DNA from: Pseudohongiella sp. O18
Lineage (GTDB): Bacteria > Pseudomonadota > Gammaproteobacteria > Pseudomonadales > Pseudohongiellaceae
Direction: 5' to 3'
NCBI RefSeq assembly: GCF_021729085.1
Contig: NZ_JAJSAR010000002.1
Coordinates: forward strand, 310,001-374,000
Length of the DNA stretch: 64,000 nt
Each line of letters opens with the position of its first letter. Position 1 is the stretch's first letter. A model generated the notes under the pieces. That model saw only the letters and a list, made by a program, of their open reading frames with translations, did no database searches and had not been told where the DNA came from. The translations under genes were made by a program, and so were the position numbers. Below are positions 32,660 to 49,531 of this stretch, piece after piece.

Positions 32660-34792
32660 ATGAAAACTATCTCTGCCAACCGAACTGCAGCTCTCATTCC
32701 TTTGCTCAGCGGATTTTCCCTGCTGCCCCTTCACTCGGCCATAGCGGCTCAGGATGAGCCTGCATTCCAGGAAGAAATCATCATCACCAGCATCCGAGCC
32801 GACCGTAACAGCCGCGGCGCCACCGGTCTGGATCTGGATGTGGCAGAGACGCCGCAGTCACTGACCATTCTGGATACCGAGACGCTGGAGAGCTTTGGTC
32901 TGGAAGACATCAACAGCATGCTGAAGCTGACGACTGGCGTGAATGTGGATTCATCCGAGACAGATCGTACCTATTACAACGCGCGTGGATTCGATATCAC
33001 CAGCATGCACGTGGATGGCGTCGGTATGCCGTTTGGTGAACTGGTGGTGGGTGATATTGATACCGCAATCTATGAAAAAGTCGAAATCATCCGTGGTTCC
33101 AACGGACTGATTACCGGGCTTGGCAACCCGTCAGGCACCATCAATTATGTCCGCAAGCGTCCAGGCAATGAATTTGCCATGAGCACACGCCTGACAGTAG
33201 GGCGCTGGGATACCCGACGTGCCGAGTTCGATATTTCTACGCCGCTGGTCGAATCCGGGCGCTGGGCCGCCCGTTTTGTGGGTGTCGCCCAGGATGGCGA
33301 AAGCTGGCTGAACAACTATGCCAATGACCGCGCGGTGGGTTCGCTGGTCATTGACGGTCAGATTGGCAATTCAGTCACAGTAGCGCTGGGTTATACGCGC
33401 CAGGACAACAACAGCGACGCACCGTTGTGGGGTGCATCGCCGATGATCTACAGCAATGGCCAGCAACTGGATTTTGATGTTTCGACCTCAACTGCCATGG
33501 AATGGTCCTACTGGGACACTTTGTCAGAGCGTTCCTTTGTCGAACTCGGCTGGCAGCTGGCTGATGACTGGCGTGTCGAAAGTTCAGTGACGCATATTGA
33601 TTACGCTGACAATTCCGAAGTGTTCTACGTCTACTCCAACACTGGCCTGGATGCCGACACCGGGCTGGGCATGCTCAGCTACCCCGGCAAGTTTGACGCC
33701 AGCGAAGAGTCATTGATCTGGGATACCTCACTGCAGGGCAGTTTTCAGGCCTTCGACCGCGAGCACGAACTAAATCTGGGTGTCAGCCTGGCTGACCAGG
33801 ATTCAGGTTCCCTGGACCATACTGCACTAAGCGGTTTCCAGGCCATGCCGGCATTCCCTGGCTGGCAGGGTAACGAAGTGGCGCGCCCAAGCTGGGATAC
33901 GCCCTATCAGGCGGCTGAGGAAGACACTCAACTGAACCGGCTCTACGGCTCGCTGCTGCTGTCGATGACAGATCGCTTCAAAGTGATTCTGGGCGTGAAC
34001 GTGGTGGACTATGAAAATCGTGGCGTCAGCTGGGGTGTTTCCACAGACTCTGACGAAGATGGCAGCAGCCCTTACGTCGGATTCACCTGGGAACTGCTGG
34101 ACAGCCTGAATCTTTACGCCAGCTACAGTGACATATACCAGCCGCAGTATTACCTGGACATGGATCTGCAGCCGCTGGGTTCAGCGGAAGGCAAAAGTTA
34201 TGAGGCGGGCCTGAAAAAGCAGTTTGATTCCTCATGGCTTGCCACGGTGGCAGTATTCAAGACTGAGCAGGAAAACCTGCAGGAATTCGTCCGTTACGGC
34301 GACGGTGACGGTATCGACGATACTGATTACAGCGACGATTTTGATTTTGCCATGTATCGCGGTATCAGCGTCGACTCCACCGGTATCGAGCTGGAAGTTT
34401 CCGGTGAAGTGGCTGAGGGACTGCGGCTGCAGGCCGGTTATACCTATCTGCAGCTGGAAGATCCCAATGGCGATGAGACGCGCACATTCATTCCGCGCAA
34501 TACCTTCAAGATGCTGGCCGACTGGCGTCCGGTATGGCAACAGCGCCTGGCGCTTGGACTGGCCGCGCGCTGGCAGGATGACATCTATTTTGACTCTGCC
34601 TACGGGCGCATCAGTCAGGATGCCTATGCGGTCATTGGCGGCTATGCGCGCTATGACGTGAGCGAGTCGCTGGCGGTCTCTCTGAACGTAGACAATGCCC
34701 TGGATGAGAAGTATCTGAGCTCGGTCAAGTTTGAGCAGTCATATTACGCAGCACCGCAGAACTACAGTGTTTCGCTGGATTGGCAATTCTGA
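32660..34792 (+). CDS. TonB-dependent siderophore receptor
   Basis: This 710-residue outer-membrane receptor is for ferric siderophore import. It has a signal peptide (cleavage near AIAA/QD), a plug domain (about 55-160, VAETPQSLTILDTETLES through RGSNGLITGLGNPSGTINYVRKRP) and a 22-strand barrel ending in an aromatic residue (SVSLDWQF). The pattern is closest to the FhuE/FpvA/FecA-like ferric-siderophore group. The Fur-like box upstream and the PepSY membrane gene downstream support an iron role. The siderophore cannot be named. Confidence 0.92.
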   Translation: MKTISANRTAALIPLLSGFSLLPLHSAIAAQDEPAFQEEIIITSIRADRNSRGATGLDLDVAETPQSLTILDTETLESFGLEDINSMLKLTTGVNVDSSETDRTYYNARGFDITSMHVDGVGMPFGELVVGDIDTAIYEKVEIIRGSNGLITGLGNPSGTINYVRKRPGNEFAMSTRLTVGRWDTRRAEFDISTPLVESGRWAARFVGVAQDGESWLNNYANDRAVGSLVIDGQIGNSVTVALGYTRQDNNSDAPLWGASPMIYSNGQQLDFDVSTSTAMEWSYWDTLSERSFVELGWQLADDWRVESSVTHIDYADNSEVFYVYSNTGLDADTGLGMLSYPGKFDASEESLIWDTSLQGSFQAFDREHELNLGVSLADQDSGSLDHTALSGFQAMPAFPGWQGNEVARPSWDTPYQAAEEDTQLNRLYGSLLLSMTDRFKVILGVNVVDYENRGVSWGVSTDSDEDGSSPYVGFTWELLDSLNLYASYSDIYQPQYYLDMDLQPLGSAEGKSYEAGLKKQFDSSWLATVAVFKTEQENLQEFVRYGDGDGIDDTDYSDDFDFAMYRGISVDSTGIELEVSGEVAEGLRLQAGYTYLQLEDPNGDETRTFIPRNTFKMLADWRPVWQQRLALGLAARWQDDIYFDSAYGRISQDAYAVIGGYARYDVSESLAVSLNVDNALDEKYLSSVKFEQSYYAAPQNYSVSLDWQF

Positions 34793-34832
34793 CAAACCGG
34801 CCCTGTTAGCATATTAAGCGGAGTGCATTGAC

Positions 34833-35948
34833 GTGAACAAACTTCTATTCAAAGTACACAGTTACCTGGCGCTTCTCGCCGTCGTGCCAATTCTCATTGT
34901 TTGTGTGACCGGCAGTATTCTGGTCTTCAAACATGAAATTGATTCTCTGCTTAGAGGGGAGCTTGTTCGCGTCGAGCCTCAGTCGCAGCGTATGCCACTG
35001 GATTCGCTGCTGGCGTCGGTCAATCAGGCGCACCCTGACTACGAAGCGGTTGGCTGGACCCTGTTCCAGGATCCTGGCCGCGCCGATCAGATGTACGTCA
35101 TGGAAAAAGGCACCAGCGACTGGTCGTATGTTTTCCTCAACCAGTACACAGGTCAGGTGCTGCAGGAACCGCAGCTCTACGATCAGTTTCTGACCGACTG
35201 GCTGCTGGAGCTGCACTTCAATTTTCTGCTCCATGATGCCGGGATGCTGGTGACATCGTTCTTCGCTGCCATTTTAATGCTGTTGGGTTTGACGGGGCTT
35301 TACCTGCACCGCAAATTCTGGAAGAACTTCTTTACGCTGCGCTGGAAAAGCCGGCTGGTTGTTTACTTCAGTGACATGCACAAACTGGTCGGTGTCATCG
35401 CATCGCCGGTGCTGATCATACTGGCCTTCACCGGTATCTGGTGGAACGTCGTGGCATACCTGTATGAGATGCAGGAGCATGCGGACGGCAGTGAGCACCA
35501 CGTCATGGTTGACCGTCTCTATGGGGAGCAGGTCTCATTTGATGCGATTGTTGCATCAGCTGAGCAACGGATAGCTGGTTTTGAGGCAACCTATCTGACC
35601 CTGCCGTACGAGCCCGGCGTTGATATCCAGGTCTGGGGTGACGTGCCTACCGGCAATATTCTGACCAGTGAGTATGCCAGTGTGGTGACCTTTGATGAGC
35701 TCAGTGGCGATTGGCTGTCTACCTATGACATCCGTGAAGCCACCACCGGCGCGGTTATTGTCGACAGTTACCGGCGACTGCATTTCGGCGACTTTGCAGG
35801 CCTGCTGTCAAAAGCGCTGTGGGCATTGCTGGGTCTGTCGCCGGTACTGTTGTCAGTTACCGGTCTGACCCTGTGGTGGAAACGTCGCAGCCAGCGTCAG
35901 CGCGCCCGTGAAAAGCGACGTGAGAAACTCGAGCTGGCAAACGCCTGA
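34833..35948 (+). CDS. PepSY-associated membrane protein (PiuB-like)
   Basis: This 371-residue inner-membrane protein has helices at about 11-33, 140-165, 188-212 and 335-355, and PepSY_TM features (KVHSYLALLAVVPILIVCVTGSILVF, DMHKLVGVIASPVLIILAFTGIWWN, SKALWALLGLSPVLLSVTGLTLWWKRR). Members linked to TonB receptors are thought to reduce ferric siderophores in the periplasm. It starts with GTG 34833 after GGAG, 40 bases from the receptor stop, so it is likely co-transcribed. Confidence 0.87.
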   Translation: MNKLLFKVHSYLALLAVVPILIVCVTGSILVFKHEIDSLLRGELVRVEPQSQRMPLDSLLASVNQAHPDYEAVGWTLFQDPGRADQMYVMEKGTSDWSYVFLNQYTGQVLQEPQLYDQFLTDWLLELHFNFLLHDAGMLVTSFFAAILMLLGLTGLYLHRKFWKNFFTLRWKSRLVVYFSDMHKLVGVIASPVLIILAFTGIWWNVVAYLYEMQEHADGSEHHVMVDRLYGEQVSFDAIVASAEQRIAGFEATYLTLPYEPGVDIQVWGDVPTGNILTSEYASVVTFDELSGDWLSTYDIREATTGAVIVDSYRRLHFGDFAGLLSKALWALLGLSPVLLSVTGLTLWWKRRSQRQRAREKRREKLELANA

Positions 35949-35963
35949 GAGCAGAATGCAATC

Positions 35964-37958
35964 TCAGTTTGAGAGAGCTGCCTGAATACCTGGTTCGGGG
36001 CGCCGCGAGGCGCCCCAACTGCTTTCCACCATCGATATCACATCGTTCAGCTCCTGCTCGCTGACATCTGCCAACGCCCCGTGTTCGAGTGGATCGTAAT
36101 GGAAGATGTAGAGGCGTGACGCAAACTCGGCAAACGACAGCGATGACTCGCCAAACCGTTCCCCGTGGCCGGCCGTGCTGACCTTCACACCATTACCCCA
36201 GTCCTGTCCGCTGTCATTATTCGGATTAAAAAAGTACACCCGCGTTGTTCCCTGGGGATCCACGGTAGCTCGAATGATGGTGATGGCATGCCAGCCAATG
36301 AATCGCGCGGCGCTGTCGGTGACGGCAATGCCAGCAGGTTGCGGATGAATCAGCGGCTGATTGCCGTTGTACCCGGGGTGGTAGTGCGCGTAAAAGTGTC
36401 GATAGAAACTTTCCAGCTCATGCAGATGGCCGGTGCCGACATCAACATTGATTCGGAAACCGCGTCCGGTCCACCAGCCGTGGAACTCGGGATTGATCCA
36501 CTGGTGCGGATCACCATCGCGACCAATGCAGTGGCGGCCCATTTCCGCGTATATTCTGTCCAGGTGTGGTACCACAAGCAGAGAAACAGGATCGAGGTCC
36601 AGCGGCAGCGTCTGCGCGACACCACTCAGGCTCTCTCGTGATGAAATGGATTTACCCTCAAAGTGCATGACAATTTCATCATCGCGGGCAGCCCAGGTCA
36701 CCATCTGCAGTAGATAGTCCGGATCGTTGTATGACCACATCGACAGGGCGCGCGCTGACTGGCAGGTGGGGTTGTTACCCTGCCCAACACCCAGCGGCAG
36801 GCCCAGCATACAAAGCACTCCTTCCATTAGCCGGGCCCGATGCGGAACCGCGTCGCCAAACGCTGCTGACAGACGCGCCTTCGACCATGGCGCGAGTTCC
36901 AGACCCAGCTGACGCCACAAGGCGGGTGCTACCGGTGGCTGATAGAAAATACCGCGCTCCAGCGTCAGTGCCAGTCCATAGATACCCTGGGCAGTTTCTG
37001 GAAACAGGCAGTCGTCAATAATGCTGTGCACCAGGTCACGAAAACACAGCAGGCAGTCGCGCCCGGTTGCAGAAAGACCCAGGGCTTCGGCAAGCAACTG
37101 ATCGCCATGCTGGGCCACCTGTTTCAAAAGGACAGCGTGATAGGGCGATACCAGTCCGGTGTCGTGCATGGCACGGGCAAAACCGGTTGCCTCATACTGC
37201 AAGGCCGTGGTGTCCATGGATTCCAGTCGTTGCTGATACACTTCGACGCCGGGATCTTCATGACAGGCCTGCGTCGGGCCGAACAGTGCGCTGACCAGGC
37301 GGTTGGCACCCTGGCCGCTGCTGCCCAGATCTATGTCGGGGTTGGCCTGGCACAGGCTGATCTGTGTGATCATCTGTTTGACAGGATCGACCTGAATAGG
37401 TCGCTGTTGAAGGATGCGCCAGATTTCGTTGATCAGCTCATCAATGATGTGTTCAAAGCCGATGCGAGACGCCAGATGCTGCAGCAGAAGGCTGGGAATC
37501 AGCGCCAGACGACCCTGTGTTTCGCGCTCGGACTCGCCTACTGAGCCGAACAGAATTGGCAGGTTCAGAGCCAGGACCTGGGTCAGAAAATGCTTTGCAG
37601 CCACCGCGCTCAAGGAGGAGTGCTGGTAGCGCGATTTGGCCACAGCCAGCATGCGCAGTTCGCTCAAGGCCTCAATGACCAGCAGAGTGGCATCACTGCC
37701 ACGCAGTGACTGCCCACTCAGTGAAGGTACCAGGATCGCCGGCTGCGCCCAGTCCGAGCCTTCAAACACACCAGCCTCTTCCAGTGCTTCGGCACGCTCC
37801 TCGATCGCCGCGCAGCCACCTGGTTGCTGCAACACGCGACGCGCAAGGTCGATGACCGGCTGTAGCCGTGTGGGTTTGGAAAAATCCGGAGCGCGCGCCA
37901 GTTGTAGGATGGCCGCATCCAGTTTTTGCAGCAAACCTGTCATTAAATCGTCCGACAA
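35964..37958 (-). CDS. Unrecognised 664-residue protein with papain-like Cys/His/Asn pattern
   Basis: No family was recognised. The N-terminal 370 residues look alpha-helical. From about 385 the sequence changes character: GQGNNPTCQSARAL (Gln393, Cys399), GWHAITII (His557) and RVYFFNPNNDSGQDWG (Asn578) follow the order oxyanion Gln, nucleophile Cys, general-base His, orienting Asn seen in papain-fold peptidases and transglutaminase-like enzymes. There is no signal peptide. TTG 37958 has GGAG 8 bases upstream; ATG 37943 is the alternative start. It lies 27 bases after an ATP-grasp ligase gene on the same strand, so the two probably act together. A cysteine peptidase or amidase role is inference from the motif order only. 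Confidence 0.6.
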   Translation of the reverse strand: MSDDLMTGLLQKLDAAILQLARAPDFSKPTRLQPVIDLARRVLQQPGGCAAIEERAEALEEAGVFEGSDWAQPAILVPSLSGQSLRGSDATLLVIEALSELRMLAVAKSRYQHSSLSAVAAKHFLTQVLALNLPILFGSVGESERETQGRLALIPSLLLQHLASRIGFEHIIDELINEIWRILQQRPIQVDPVKQMITQISLCQANPDIDLGSSGQGANRLVSALFGPTQACHEDPGVEVYQQRLESMDTTALQYEATGFARAMHDTGLVSPYHAVLLKQVAQHGDQLLAEALGLSATGRDCLLCFRDLVHSIIDDCLFPETAQGIYGLALTLERGIFYQPPVAPALWRQLGLELAPWSKARLSAAFGDAVPHRARLMEGVLCMLGLPLGVGQGNNPTCQSARALSMWSYNDPDYLLQMVTWAARDDEIVMHFEGKSISSRESLSGVAQTLPLDLDPVSLLVVPHLDRIYAEMGRHCIGRDGDPHQWINPEFHGWWTGRGFRINVDVGTGHLHELESFYRHFYAHYHPGYNGNQPLIHPQPAGIAVTDSAARFIGWHAITIIRATVDPQGTTRVYFFNPNNDSGQDWGNGVKVSTAGHGERFGESSLSFAEFASRLYIFHYDPLEHGALADVSEQELNDVISMVESSWGASRRPEPGIQAALSN

Positions 37959-37985
37959 GTCGATATCTCCCGCGGGTCCTGCCTG

Positions 37986-39209
37986 CTAGATGTAATAGTC
38001 CAGCTCTTCCTGAGCCTTCAGTGTGTCATGCAGCTTCTGTGCATCCTCACCCCGAAAGTACACCAGTCCCCAGTGTGTGCCAAACGCTGTGCGCTTGGTG
38101 ACGGTTTCTTCCAACGGTGGTGTCAGCTCGTGAGACTCAAAGTAGGGGTTGTTGTCCACCTCTTCGGGGATGACCAGCTGGCTGACCACGCGTCGTCGTG
38201 GATAGACACCAAAACAGCCGGCGTAACCATCGGCGTCCTCGACTTCTTTCGGGAAAAACGCCTTAACTTCTTCTGCGGTGGTCTTGGGGTCGAATACCAG
38301 CATGCTGGCCTGATAGGCGTTGAAGCCATACACGCGTTCAAGCAGTTCGAATACCTTGAAACCCGGTGGGCGGTAAGCCACCTCGCCAAAGTACATTTCG
38401 CCATCACTGGTGACGAAGTATTCCGGGTGAATCAGGCCAAATTCAATGTCGAAGGCCTTGATCAGCTTCTCGATCTGGGCGCGAATCTGTGGACGGTATT
38501 TCTCGAGTTCCGGTGAGGCTGGCACAAATACCGAGTAGCCAAGTGTTACATACTCAGAGATGTTCAGGAATACGATCTTGCCGTTGTGGATCCAGGCCTC
38601 AACCGCAAACTCCCAGCCATCCAGATGGGATTCCATCAACACCGGAAATTCCTCATCGGGAATGGAGTCGACCTCATCGGGGGTACGAATTACACGATGC
38701 CCCAGGCAGCCTGCCTTGTCGAAAGCTTTTAAGTGAATCGGATCGTTGGGGTCGCCGTCCAGTTTCAGCAGAGTCTGATTGACGCGTTTCAGAAAACGAA
38801 CCACATCTTCCTTGTCGTGTGCCTCTTCGAAAATGCCGACGCGAATGCCGCCCAGCTGCGCCCTGCGTTTCATCAGTGCCTTGTCACGTAGCAGCAGAGA
38901 CTGTCCATACAGGCGCGGGTTGTCCAGCAGTACCGAGTTTATGGCACCAGCCCACTCGACAGTTTCCTCATACAGGGGGATGGCAATATCGACACCCATT
39001 TCCTTCAGGGTCTCAGCGATCTCCATGGATCGGTCATTCAGTCTTTCAAAGTTCCAGGACAGATAGGGAATATTGTGTTTCTCACAGTATTCCTCGGCCC
39101 AGTCAGGAGCGACCACGACATAGCGGCGATCAAACGTTTCTGCCGCCTCTACAGCGTTCAGGCTCCAACCCAGTAGCGCGATATACCCTTTGTTTGGGTC
39201 TTTCTTCAT
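37986..39209 (-). CDS. ATP-grasp carboxylate-amine ligase-like protein
   Basis: This 407-residue ATP-grasp protein has an N-terminal pre-ATP-grasp fold (GYIALLGWSLNAVEAAETF) and a central ATP-binding part with VLMESHLDGWEFAVEAWIHNGK (about 190-211). The metal/nucleotide segment GLIHPEYFVTSDGEMYFGEVAYRPPG (258-283) resembles the HxE...E.N.RPGG pattern of carboxylate-amine ligases. The family joins an activated carboxylate to an amine, as in D-Ala-D-Ala ligase, BacD or glutathione synthetase; the substrates here are unknown. The partner gene downstream has a papain-like motif set, so a ligase/hydrolase pair acting on a peptide or amide is a reasonable hypothesis. Confidence 0.8.
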   Translation of the reverse strand: MKKDPNKGYIALLGWSLNAVEAAETFDRRYVVVAPDWAEEYCEKHNIPYLSWNFERLNDRSMEIAETLKEMGVDIAIPLYEETVEWAGAINSVLLDNPRLYGQSLLLRDKALMKRRAQLGGIRVGIFEEAHDKEDVVRFLKRVNQTLLKLDGDPNDPIHLKAFDKAGCLGHRVIRTPDEVDSIPDEEFPVLMESHLDGWEFAVEAWIHNGKIVFLNISEYVTLGYSVFVPASPELEKYRPQIRAQIEKLIKAFDIEFGLIHPEYFVTSDGEMYFGEVAYRPPGFKVFELLERVYGFNAYQASMLVFDPKTTAEEVKAFFPKEVEDADGYAGCFGVYPRRRVVSQLVIPEEVDNNPYFESHELTPPLEETVTKRTAFGTHWGLVYFRGEDAQKLHDTLKAQEELDYYI

Positions 39210-39358: not shown

Positions 39359-39676
39359 TTAGCGCGTTGACAGCAGTCCGCGGCGACGAAACCAGATTTC
39401 CAAAGGCAGTGTCACCAGGGGGGGAATGGCCGCGAGCAGGGCGAGCAGACTCATCTGCCAGGACCAGCGCAGGCGCGCGCTGCAGTAGACACATACGATC
39501 ACATAGATGATGAACGCACCGCCATGCAGGCGGCCAAACAGCCACACTCCCAGGTCGGTGGTTTCGGTGACGTATTTCAGAAACATGCCCACCAGCAGAC
39601 CGGCCCAGGTGAGGGCCTCAAAAAGTGCGACGACTGAAAACAGTCTGCCTGCCGGGGACAATGGAAGATGGGTCAT
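39359..39676 (-). CDS. DUF3817 membrane protein
   Basis: This 105-residue protein has three membrane helices and the DUF3817 pattern SVVALFEALTWAGLLVGMFLKYV followed by GRLHGGAFIIYVIVCV. The function of the family is unknown. It lies 149 bases upstream of the ATP-grasp gene on the same strand, which is far enough that co-transcription is uncertain. Confidence 0.82.
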   Translation of the reverse strand: MTHLPLSPAGRLFSVVALFEALTWAGLLVGMFLKYVTETTDLGVWLFGRLHGGAFIIYVIVCVYCSARLRWSWQMSLLALLAAIPPLVTLPLEIWFRRRGLLSTR

Positions 39677-42699: not shown

Positions 42700-43467
42700 T
42701 TAAACATTGTGCAAAGCAGCGCGGGCAATCATCCAGATACCCATGCCCATCATCATGAGATTTTCGGTCAATGAAACAAAGCCAAGTGGCACCTTGCTGT
42801 CCCCGCCAACGCAGGCGCACTTAAGGGACCGCTTGTCGATATACACGGCTTTAAAAACTGAGGCGGCGCCAACACTACCGATAAACAGCGCGACCGGTGC
42901 TGAAATCCAGACCAGCGCCCCTGCAATCATCAGCAAACCAGCCAGCGTTTCCCCAAAAGGGTAGAGGTAGGCGTATCCAACATAACGCTGCGCCAATAAA
43001 TCATAATTGAGAAACATGCTGGAGAAGGCTTCGACATCCTTGAGTTTTTGGAGTCCCAGCAGCGTCATTGCGCCTGCCACAAACCATTCAAGTGTTCGTC
43101 CGGTAATCACAGAACCTGCTGTGGCCCAGCTGATGGATAGTGCCATCAGTGCGGCGACGAGAAAGAGCGCGATGACTGGCCGGTAGCTGAGCCCCTCGTC
43201 TTCGGCAGATGCTTTGCCAAAATACTGGCGCAGGGATTCATAACCGCCGATGCGTTCTCCATCGATGAAGGTCTGTGGTGTGGTATCCACATCGTGTTTC
43301 TTTTTAAACGATTCAACTTCCTGTCGTGATCGCAGTTTGTGATCCTCTACCTGGTAACCCTGGCGTCGTAACAGATAACGGGATTTCAATCCAAATGGGC
43401 ACAGGTGCCCGGGCATGTCCATGCGATACAGTGTTGCATTTCTATTGGCAGTCGTTTCGTTTGTCAT
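42700..43467 (-). CDS. Glutaredoxin-MauE fusion protein
   Basis: This 255-residue fusion has an N-terminal glutaredoxin domain (about 11-85) with redox site CPFG (Cys23, single cysteine) and cis-Pro in TTPQTFIDGERIGGYESL. It is followed by a four-helix MauE/DoxX-like membrane domain (about 97-250) carrying Cys217 and Cys219 in SLKCACVGG. MauE is needed for disulfide formation in methylamine dehydrogenase; the fusion suggests electron transfer from a cytosolic glutaredoxin to the membrane domain. No mau genes are nearby, so the target is unknown. Confidence 0.85.
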   Translation of the reverse strand: MTNETTANRNATLYRMDMPGHLCPFGLKSRYLLRRQGYQVEDHKLRSRQEVESFKKKHDVDTTPQTFIDGERIGGYESLRQYFGKASAEDEGLSYRPVIALFLVAALMALSISWATAGSVITGRTLEWFVAGAMTLLGLQKLKDVEAFSSMFLNYDLLAQRYVGYAYLYPFGETLAGLLMIAGALVWISAPVALFIGSVGAASVFKAVYIDKRSLKCACVGGDSKVPLGFVSLTENLMMMGMGIWMIARAALHNV

Positions 43468-45532: not shown

Positions 45533-45610
45533 CGTCGCACCCGAATGCCGGCGCGTCTGTGTCCGGTAACCTGCATCCCTGACCACCAACTTGTAAGGCT
45601 ATCTGACACA

Positions 45611-48600
45611 ATGCTAGTTCTTCCCGGCAGCACCGCTCATTCCGACTTCAGACTTCGCAAACTGCTCCGCGGCGTTCAGCAGGACCTGCCAGCAGTAACG
45701 GCAATTCACTCGCGATTTGTCCATCTGGTTGACTGTGACGCACCCATAGCAAGCGAGCAGCTGGAGATTCTGGGGCAGTTACTTGCCTATGGCGACATGG
45801 CAGAAGAAACGCAGGGCAGTGCCCAGGGCGTGTACCGGCTGGTTGTGCCGCGCCCGGGCACCATTTCACCCTGGTCGAGCAAGGCGACTGACATTGTCCG
45901 CAATTGTGGTCTGAAAGACGTTGCGCGCCTGGAGCGCGGCATTGAGTGGCATGTCACGGTCGAAGGCTCGCTTAGCGATGATGAGCTGAAACTGCTCGAT
46001 ACCCACCTGCACGACAAGATGACCCAGGCCGTCCTGAATGAAGTGGAGCAGGCCGCTCAGCTGTTTACCCACGCCGAGCCGGCCGCCATGGCGCAGGTTG
46101 ATGTGCTGGGCAAGGGCCGTCAGGCGCTGGTGAACGCCAATCGTGAGCTCGGTCTGGCGCTGGCAGATGATGAAATCGATTATCTGGTGGATGCCTTCAC
46201 CAGGCTTGGCCGAAATCCCAACGATGTAGAGCTGATGATGTTTGCGCAGGCCAATTCCGAGCATTGCCGGCACAAGATATTTAACGCCAGCTGGACTATC
46301 GATGGCATAGATCAGGATCTGTCGCTGTTTGCCATGATCCGCAACACGCACGCCAAATCTCCGGACAACGTTCTGTCTGCCTACAAGGACAATGCGGCCG
46401 TCATGAGTGGCAGCGTTGCGGGGCGTTTTTTCCCGCAGCCGCTCACACATGAATACACCTACACAGAGGAACCCATCCACATTCTGATGAAAGTGGAGAC
46501 ACATAATCATCCGACCGCCATCGCGCCATTCCCGGGTGCGGCAACCGGCAGCGGTGGTGAAATCCGCGACGAAGGTGCTACCGGCACAGGCGCCAAACCC
46601 AAAGCGGGCCTGTGCGGGTTCAGCGTGTCCAATCTTCGCATACCGGCATTGCCACAGCCCTGGGAGGAAGATTTCGGTCGCCCGGCGCACATCGTCTCGG
46701 CGCTGGATATCATGCTGGAAGGACCGATTGGTGCGGCAGCCTTCAATAACGAATTTGGCCGGCCCAATCTCTGCGGTTATTTCCGTACCTATGAGGAGTC
46801 GGTGCCTGCGGTAGATGGCAACGAAGTCCGTGGTTACCACAAGCCCATCATGATTGCTGGTGGTATCGGCAACATTCGTGAGTCACATGTGCAGAAGCAG
46901 CCCTTTGCGCCAGGCGCTAAACTGATCGTGCTGGGCGGTCCGGCAATGCTGATCGGACTCGGTGGTGGTGCGGCCTCGTCGATGGCAGCCGGATCCGGCA
47001 GTGCCGATCTGGATTTTGCCTCAGTGCAGCGCGAAAACCCGGAAATCGAACGTCGCTGCCAGGAAGTTATCGATCGCTGCTGGCAGATGGGCGACAACAA
47101 TCCGATTGCCTTCATTCACGACGTCGGTGCCGGTGGCCTGTCCAATGCGCTGCCCGAGCTGGTTAAAGACGGCGAGCGTGGTGGTCGTTTTGAACTGCGT
47201 CAGGTGCCGAACGCGGAATCAGGCATGTCGCCATTGGAAATCTGGTGTAACGAAGCACAGGAGCGTTATGTACTGGCGGTGATGCCCGATCGTCTGGCCG
47301 ACTTCGAAGCCATCTGCAAGCGAGAACGTTGCCCCTTCGCGGTAGTGGGTGAGGCGACTGAAGAGAAACATATTGCGCTGGACGACAGCCACTTCGGCAA
47401 TCGTCCGATTGACCTGCCGATGTCGGTGCTGTTTGGCAAACCCCCGCGTATGCACCGCGATGTGCGCAGCGAGACGGTACGCACCGTGGGACTGGATACG
47501 GCCCAGATTGAGCTCGATGATGCGCTTGAGCGGGTGTTGAGTCTTCCAGCAGTCGCCAGCAAGAATTTCCTGATTACCATTGGTGACCGCACCGTAACCG
47601 GTCTGGTGTCACGCGACCAGATGGTTGGGCCCTGGCAGGTACCGGTGGCTGATGCCGCCGTGACAGCCGCCTCTTTCGACAGCTATGCCGGTGAAGCCAT
47701 GGCCATGGGCGAGCGAACGCCGATCGCACTGCTGGATGCGCCCGCATCAGGCCGCATGGCGGTTGCTGAGGCCATCACCAATATCGCCTCGGCCAGCATC
47801 AGAGACATACGTGATATCAAACTGTCGGCGAACTGGATGGTGGCGGCCGGCCACACCGGAGAGGATGCGCGCCTGTACGAGACCGTTCGCGCAGTCGGTA
47901 TGGAGCTGTGCCCGGCGCTGGGTATCTGTATTCCGGTAGGCAAGGACTCAATGTCCATGCGCACGGTCTGGAAGGAAAACGGCGAGGCAAAGAGCAACAC
48001 CGCGCCGTTGTCATTGATAGTGTCGGCCTTTGCGCCAGTACAGGATGTACGCAGGACCATCACCCCACAGCTGCGGCTGGAGCGAGGCGATACCGAGCTG
48101 CTGTTGCTGGATCTGGGACGTGGCCGCAACCGCATGGGCGGCTCGGCACTGGCGCAGGTTTACCGCGAGCTCGGTGAAACACCAGCCGACCTGGACAGTC
48201 CTGACGATCTGAAAAACTTCTTTGGTCTGATCCAGCAGCTTAACGCCGACGGCCTGCTGCTGGCCTATCACGACCGCTCTGATGGCGGTCTGATCACGAC
48301 ATTGCTGGAGATGGCGTTTGCGGGACACTGTGGTCTGGATATTCAGTTGGCGGAGCTGCTCTCCTCGGATCAGGACGTTCAACCCACCGAGATAGACGTG
48401 CTGTTCAACGAAGAACCAGGCGCAGTACTGCAGGTGTCTTCGGCGCAGCTGAATCAGGTTATCAGCCTGGTCGAAGAGTTTGGCCTGTCCGACTGTGCCT
48501 GCGTACTCGGCCGGCCGGTCGCTGGCGACCAGATCCGCATTTTCAATTCAGGTCGTCTGCTGCTCGACACCACACGGACACATTGCCAGCAGGTCTGGGC

Positions 48601-49531
48601 CCGCACCAGTTACGAAATGCAGGCCTTGCGGGACAATCCGGAGTGTGCCGAGCAGGAATACGAACGCCTTGCTGACAAAAAAGACCCGGGCCTGCATGCA
48701 CGCCTCAGCTTTGATGTGAACGAGAATATTTCTGCGCCATTTATCAATACCGGCGTACGTCCTGCCGTAGCGGTCCTGCGTGAGCAGGGCGTCAACGGTC
48801 ATGTTGAAATGGCAGCGGCGTTTGATCGTGCCGGCCTCAAGGCAGTTGATGTGCACATGAGCGATCTGCTCAGCGGCGCCGTTGCTCTGGATGCGTTCAA
48901 CGTATTGGCCGCCTGCGGCGGCTTCTCATACGGCGACGTGCTGGGAGCCGGCGGTGGCTGGGCCAAGTCTGTGCTGTTTAATGAACCACTGCGACGCCAG
49001 TTTGAGGCCTTCTTCAAACGAGACAACACACTGTCGCTGGGCATCTGTAACGGCTGTCAGATGATGTCATTGCTGCACGAGCTGATCCCGGGCGCAGAGA
49101 ACTGGCCGCGCTTCGAACGCAATCGCTCTGAGCAGTTTGAGGCTCGTGTCAGTCTGCTGAAGGTTCCCGATTCACCCTCGGTGTTTTTCGCCGGCATGAA
49201 AGACTCTGTATTCCCGGTTGCCGTGGCGCATGGAGAAGGGCGGGCGCAGTTCGCTGACGCCACCCAGCGCGCGCAGCTGAAGGCCGCATCAGGCATCGCC
49301 GCTGCCTACGTGGACAATTATGGTGAAGTGACGGAGCATTACCCAGAGAACCCTAACGGTTCGCCAGCCGGCATTGCCGGAGTCTGCAGCCGCGATGGAC
49401 GTGTGACAATCATGATGCCGCACCCGGAGCGTGTGTTCCGTGCCGTACAGAACTCATGGCATCCGGCGGAGTGGCAGGAAGACGCCCCGACGCTGAGAAT
49501 GTTCCGCAACGCCCGAGCCTGGTTGAAGTAA
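45611..49531 (+). CDS. purL: Phosphoribosylformylglycinamidine synthase
   Basis: PurL converts FGAR to FGAM in purine synthesis. The 1306-residue single-chain form typical of gammaproteobacteria has an N-terminal PurS-like domain, two AIRS-like ATP-binding domains ([16 protein letters not shown]-type region, then [27 protein letters not shown]), and a C-terminal glutamine amidotransferase with nucleophile in [10 protein letters not shown] and [12 protein letters not shown] 45611 gives the start [14 protein letters not shown] seen in relatives; the frame opens earlier at 45545. Confidence 0.98.

Follow-up and report, generated by a model that had tools for sequence, protein, structure and literature searches.

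An ATP-grasp ligase and calpain-like cysteine protein gene pair of Pseudohongiella sp. O18 and its association with ectoine synthase genes

ATP-grasp ligases act together with papain-fold or peptidase partners in several described systems. In butirosin biosynthesis, the ATP-grasp ligase BtrJ works with BtrH, a papain-fold acyl transferase, while in glutathionylspermidine synthetase/amidase an ATP-grasp enzyme and a cysteine amidase domain of the CHAP type make and cleave one amide. The genes for the osmolyte N-acetylglutaminylglutamine amide (NAGGN) include an ATP-grasp ligase plus a peptidase, and ATP-grasp and papain-fold proteins also meet in peptide natural-product and defence systems. BtrH is named papain-like in PMC2922099. 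An ATP-grasp ligase with a partner of this sort is an already known kind of arrangement. Here, we describe such a pair in a 64,000-nucleotide stretch of the Pseudohongiella sp. O18 genome (contig NZ_JAJSAR010000002.1, positions 310,001 to 374,000; hereafter, the window), consisting of an ATP-grasp ligase gene and a downstream gene for a 664-residue cysteine protein. The pair differs from BtrJ and BtrH in having, in the window, no adjoining carrier protein gene, and from glutathionylspermidine synthetase/amidase in being two genes with a calpain-like domain instead of CHAP. What looks new is the calpain-like partner with its large helical part, a third member resembling histone deacetylases (HDAC) in most genomes, and a link to ectoine.

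Among the papers listed by full-text searches, judged on titles and abstract openings, none concerns the ligase/calpain-like pair; a family without a name is not easily traced by text search. In the parts of the sources available, the ectoine review PMC5924519 holds no word starting with 'ligase' or 'peptidase', the survey of papain-like proteins PMC10318531 holds 'ATP-grasp' once, in its reference list, and no word starting with 'halo', and the bacterial calpain papers PMC4631099 and PMC9380684 do not mention 'Halomonas'.

The first-pass annotation of the window, made from the sequence alone, had described the ligase gene and the 664-residue gene as a two-gene unit separated by 27 bases, with a good ribosome site ahead of the second gene. 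The coordinates of both open reading frames (ORFs) confirm this observation, and GGGAG lies 8 bases ahead of the TTG start. In a contig search with the cysteine protein, at least 580 of 594 matched stretches, several of which may share one locus, encode a relative; hence, the ORFs are not a product of chance. At least 80 distinct loci were kept, at 69-97% identity, and the named ones belong mostly to Halomonas and related genera, in addition to Ectothiorhodospiraceae, Guyparkeria, Methylonatrum and others. In 76 of the 80 named loci, the ligase gene immediately precedes the cysteine protein gene in the same orientation, with a gap of 25-342 bases (median 88; measured from match end to match start, which slightly overstates the true gaps). 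Two of the four exceptions carry degraded ligase remnants upstream of the cysteine protein gene, in a third (L074) part of a ligase is matched on the opposite strand at a distance of about 7.5 kb, and in the fourth (L023) no ligase match was found in the fetched stretch. The remnants lie at L062:7625-7938 and L078:7819-7938, each directly upstream of a full-length cysteine protein gene. In distant lineages the two genes are often placed head to head.

Co-occurrence is stricter than adjacency. When a cysteine protein match had to reach E ≤ 1e-3 and a ligase match E ≤ 1e-30, both genes were found in 13 of 369 genomes of the class, 8 of 299 of the phylum and 12 of 56 relatives, and each time the two proteins marked an identical set of genomes. 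These three samples overlap and together give 29 pair-bearing genomes, all within the phylum of the window; a genome with only one of the two genes was not found in any of them. The association is kept even where the genes are separate, as in G342, where they lie at 764 kb and 821 kb of one contig. The conserved pairing on which the first-pass annotation depended is thus borne out by neighbourhood and by exceptionless co-occurrence in the sampled genomes.

Several genomes hold extra copies of the cysteine protein gene (five full-length copies in G053 and three in G003), some of them without a ligase in the fetched surroundings. In G003, two tandem cysteine protein genes stand head to head with one ligase gene (L129:5338-11214). 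Solitary copies in one genus (G053, G577) lie near genes for a GCS2-like ligase and an AstE/AspA-like hydrolase (L127:7025-12841 and L132:7279-11868, the Pfam assignments being based on the L132 copies), which are possibly another amide-forming and amide-cleaving pair. The surroundings of the solitary copies in one or other of these two genomes also hold a Memo protein, a metallo-beta-lactamase-fold protein and a FabH-like protein.

Over its whole length, the ligase resembles L-amino-acid ligases in structural comparison and is closest in fold to ligases acting on free amino acids. It shares this fold with the dipeptide ligases BL00235, RizA and BacD/YwfE at 14-16% identity, and differs from them in being paired with a cysteine enzyme. 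In an alignment of 38 rows, picked from 50 representatives of 103 sequences, H261-P262-E263, E276 and R280 are invariant; the Glu/Glu/Arg set of ATP-grasp L-amino-acid ligases is therefore represented by E263, E276 and R280, which we take to be the metal and phosphate residues. Curated families score the ligase just below the cut-off in one case (PF13535, 26.9 bits against 27) and far below it in the other (PRK07206, 27.4 bits against 302).

At E ≤ 1, neither Pfam nor NCBIfam assigns the cysteine protein to a named family, and PHROGs and PADLOC give no match at E ≤ 0.1. Its structure was modelled with a predicted local distance difference test score (pLDDT) of 88.8 and a predicted template modelling score (pTM) of 0.80. 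The C-terminal domain is predicted to be papain-like, with calpain cores nearest at a modest score; calpain entries fill rows 1-14 of the structural comparison at 8-14% identity. The first-pass annotation had pointed out Gln393, Cys399, His557 and Asn578 in the order of papain-fold enzymes. All four residues stand where claimed, their order agrees with the predicted fold, and each is invariant in an alignment of 41 rows (picked from 50 representatives of 122 sequences) in which the other 40 share 40-80% identity with the window protein. In the model and alignment together, the cysteine opens a helix, the histidine lies on a strand, the asparagine follows the next strand and the glutamine precedes the cysteine, as in papain-like enzymes of clan CA. 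Variable residues, a fold unrelated to papain and rare adjacency of the two genes, the three outcomes that the first-pass annotation had named as speaking against it, were none of them seen.

The spacing Gln-6-Cys-158-His-21-Asn is close to the 6/157/24 of the calpain core (family C2), and the CysPc core fold is present in the predicted structure. The protein differs from calpains in its N-terminal part of about 380 residues, which is helical in the model (mean column identity 0.53-0.71), in its low identity and in not being recognised by a curated calpain sequence model. Pfam matches of the 41 members at E ≤ 10 comprise nine weak families, the best being PqqD at 0.011, with no calpain or papain family among them; therefore, we name the protein calpain-like and not calpain. 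Searches of the PDB gave weak unrelated matches only (best E value 0.51 with the single sequence and 0.25 with a profile), and a viral structure library gave no match at E ≤ 0.001, papain-type viral proteins standing at ranks 2, 4 and 7. No transglutaminase is among the best 50 rows of the structural comparison, which does not exclude one. According to the available part of PMC4631099, calcium-binding sites are missing in bacterial calpain homologues.

A third gene recurs beside the pair. Among 40 loci of 15 families, in which genes were called roughly with a codon-usage caller, the sensible recurrent neighbours were an HDAC-like gene in five families and ectC, the ectoine synthase gene, in two; other genes are shared by two or three families, their distance from the pair varying, as judged by eye and not in all cases by Pfam. 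The HDAC-like gene adjoins the pair in G596, G401, G314 and G235, and in G542 lies four called genes from a ligase; two copies score 302.7 and 318.1 bits against PF00850. When the 57 class genomes with an ectC match were searched, 12 of 13 pair-bearing genomes gave 323-875 bits and the remaining one (G215) only 197, whereas all 44 pair-less genomes, four of which have an ectC match below the curated cut-off, gave at most 212 bits or no match. With an orthologue line of at least 320 bits, set after the gap between 323 and 212 bits was visible, the contrast of 12 of 13 against 0 of 44 has a Fisher probability of 1.8e-11; this and the other chance figures assume independence of the genomes, which does not hold. 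Among the relatives, at E ≤ 1e-60, 6 of the 12 genomes with the pair have the gene and none of the 44 lacking the pair does; in those carrying ectC the comparison is 6 of 12 against 0 of 14 (Fisher 0.004). Overall, 17 of 24 pair genomes tested have the orthologue. Because this comparison holds the presence of ectC constant, a salt habitat alone explains the link poorly. Ten named loci have weaker HDAC matches (33-42%) at a distance of 2-6 kb, and these were taken as non-orthologous.

The pair is nested among genomes with ectoine synthase (PF06339). In the class sample, 57 of 369 genomes have a match; 53 of these exceed the curated cut-off, including every one of the 13 with the pair. Among relatives, ectC occurs in 26 of 56, including 12 of 12 with the pair. 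It was present in 24 of 24 distinct pair genomes tested, the search covering all of the 29 apart from G434, G495, G542, G577 and G596, and all 13 pair genomes searched for ectB have it above its cut-off. The genus of the window says little at this level, since ectC is found in 13 of its 15 genomes and the pair in 8.

In two lineages, ectC belongs to the same string of genes as the pair. G314 carries the string cysteine protein, HDAC-like protein, ligase and ectC, and in G036 the ligase and cysteine protein genes are followed one base on by an ectC that is cut by the contig end. On a separate contig of G036, a MarR-type gene, an EctA-like gene and ectB (the identities of EctA and MarR being read from translations) are followed by a saccharopine dehydrogenase-like gene instead of ectC, and the copy beside the pair is the sole ectC found by the genome search. 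Both copies exceed the cut-off of the ectoine synthase model and, with positions matched on an alignment, appear to retain the three metal ligands described for ectoine synthase in the available part of PMC6344544. The window's own genome differs in that ectBC lie far from the pair. In G053 (L215:8688-9086), ectC (C10:1139702) is about 61 kb from ectB (C10:1201145), a further case of an ectC away from ectB. PMC5924519 describes the role of EctC proteins that occur alone as not yet settled.

Tentatively, and with a confidence slightly short of even, we favour the reading that the two enzymes form a core, usually joined by the HDAC-like enzyme, that makes and breaks an amide of a small amino-acid-derived molecule in ectoine-based osmoadaptation. 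The ATP-grasp enzyme would convert a carboxylate to an acyl phosphate and couple it to an amine in the manner of L-amino-acid ligases, as its fold and conserved residues suggest. The invariant Cys399, His557 and Asn578, with Gln393, would allow the calpain-like protein to form a thioacyl intermediate and to hydrolyse or transfer the product, and the HDAC-like enzyme may strip an N-acyl group from the substrate or product. The simplest view would be that an amide-linked small molecule is synthesised, and its turnover controlled, during salt adaptation. A cytosolic module is the best reading; no transmembrane-like stretch was found in either window protein (highest 19-residue hydropathy 1.39 and 1.32). 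A more specific version, in which the ligase couples diaminobutyrate, N-acetyl-diaminobutyrate or ectoine to another amino acid while the other two enzymes trim or recycle the product, is doubtful. The earlier suggestion that the pair makes and cleaves, or modifies, an amide-linked product is partly supported, in that the residues, fold and pairing fit it, while the product itself remains conjectural. Weighing against the favoured reading, the pair is not present wherever the ectoine pathway is, since 44 of the 57 genomes of the class that match ectC lack it (40 of 53 above the cut-off), and is an accessory of that pathway at most.

The same absence, together with distances of 150-320 kb between the genes in the window's genome, would suit an alternative that we consider somewhat unlikely, namely that only a salt habitat unites the ectoine genes with the pair and the HDAC-like gene, which would share no pathway with one another; against this stand the two lineages with ectC adjoining the pair (in G036 away from ectB) and the HDAC orthologue that follows the pair among ectC-bearing genomes in both samples. 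Quite unlikely, in our judgement, is a protein-directed role, in which the ligase would attach an amino acid or a peptide to proteins under salt stress, the calpain-like enzyme would cut or shorten these proteins and the HDAC-like enzyme would remove acyl groups from lysines. The helical N-terminal part could bind protein, calpains are endopeptidases according to the available part of PMC4631099, and HDAC6 followed by bacterial HDAC-like hydrolases are the best PDB sequence matches of the third partner, but the fold of the ligase is nearest to ligases of free amino acids and no carrier or tag gene adjoins the pair in the window. A peptide natural-product or defence module, such as graspetide-like maturation or an anti-phage system, for which the available part of PMC2922099 offers a related context, is highly improbable given a 27-base gap without room for a precursor gene (the flanks were not systematically searched for small ORFs), the lack of PADLOC or PHROGs matches, the absence of matches in phage and viral-contig searches and a single plasmid record with a match, a 1.8-Mb Halomonas replicon.

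The first-pass annotation had also stated that no resistance, transport or carrier gene adjoins the pair. This holds for resistance and carrier genes; a TonB-dependent receptor gene, which broadly speaking counts as a transport gene, lies one gene off on the other strand. On the 3' side, a PepSY_TM gene runs towards the pair and stops at 35948, and the receptor and PepSY_TM genes (32660-35948) look like an ordinary iron-uptake pair. Elsewhere in the window, a 255-residue protein (42700-43467) has a MauE-type domain and an N-terminal part that is glutaredoxin-like when its translation is read by eye, and a 1328-residue ORF occupies 45545-49531 on the plus strand. The features are listed in Table 1.

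Table 1. Features of the gene pair and associated genes; positions are those of the window unless a genome and contig are given.
Feature	Position	Strand	Remark
ATP-grasp ligase ORF	37986-39209	-	407 aa, ATG start
Cysteine protein ORF	35964-37958	-	664 aa, TTG start
Calpain-like catalytic domain, residues 361-623	36090-36878	-	Predicted fold
Gln393, candidate oxyanion-hole residue	36780-36782	-	Invariant in 41/41 rows
Cys399 (NNPTCQSA), candidate nucleophile, start of helix 399-411	36762-36764	-	Invariant in 41/41 rows; DSSP of model
His557 (GWHAI), on strand 553-566	36288-36290	-	Invariant in 41/41 rows; DSSP of model
Asn578 (FFNPN), directly after strand 572-577	36225-36227	-	Invariant in 41/41 rows; DSSP of model
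DUF3817 gene	39359-39676	-	Upstream neighbour of the pair; next beyond is ilvD on the plus strand
HDAC-like gene of the window's genome	G000:C2:496990-498078		Outside the window

The cysteine protein represents a family at no fewer than 80 distinct named loci that has no Pfam or NCBIfam match and, in the genomes sampled, always occurs with a strongly conserved, predicted amide-forming enzyme. Halomonas and its relatives are used for ectoine production, and the nesting of the pair among genomes with ectoine synthase offers a possible lead into the salt-stress chemistry of these bacteria; the co-presence of ectC hints at an undescribed piece of that chemistry. The pair may also be relevant to ectC genes located away from ectAB. 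If a three-enzyme branch of the ectoine pathway were true, its product would be a novel compatible solute or an ectoine precursor stored in a form from which it can be released.
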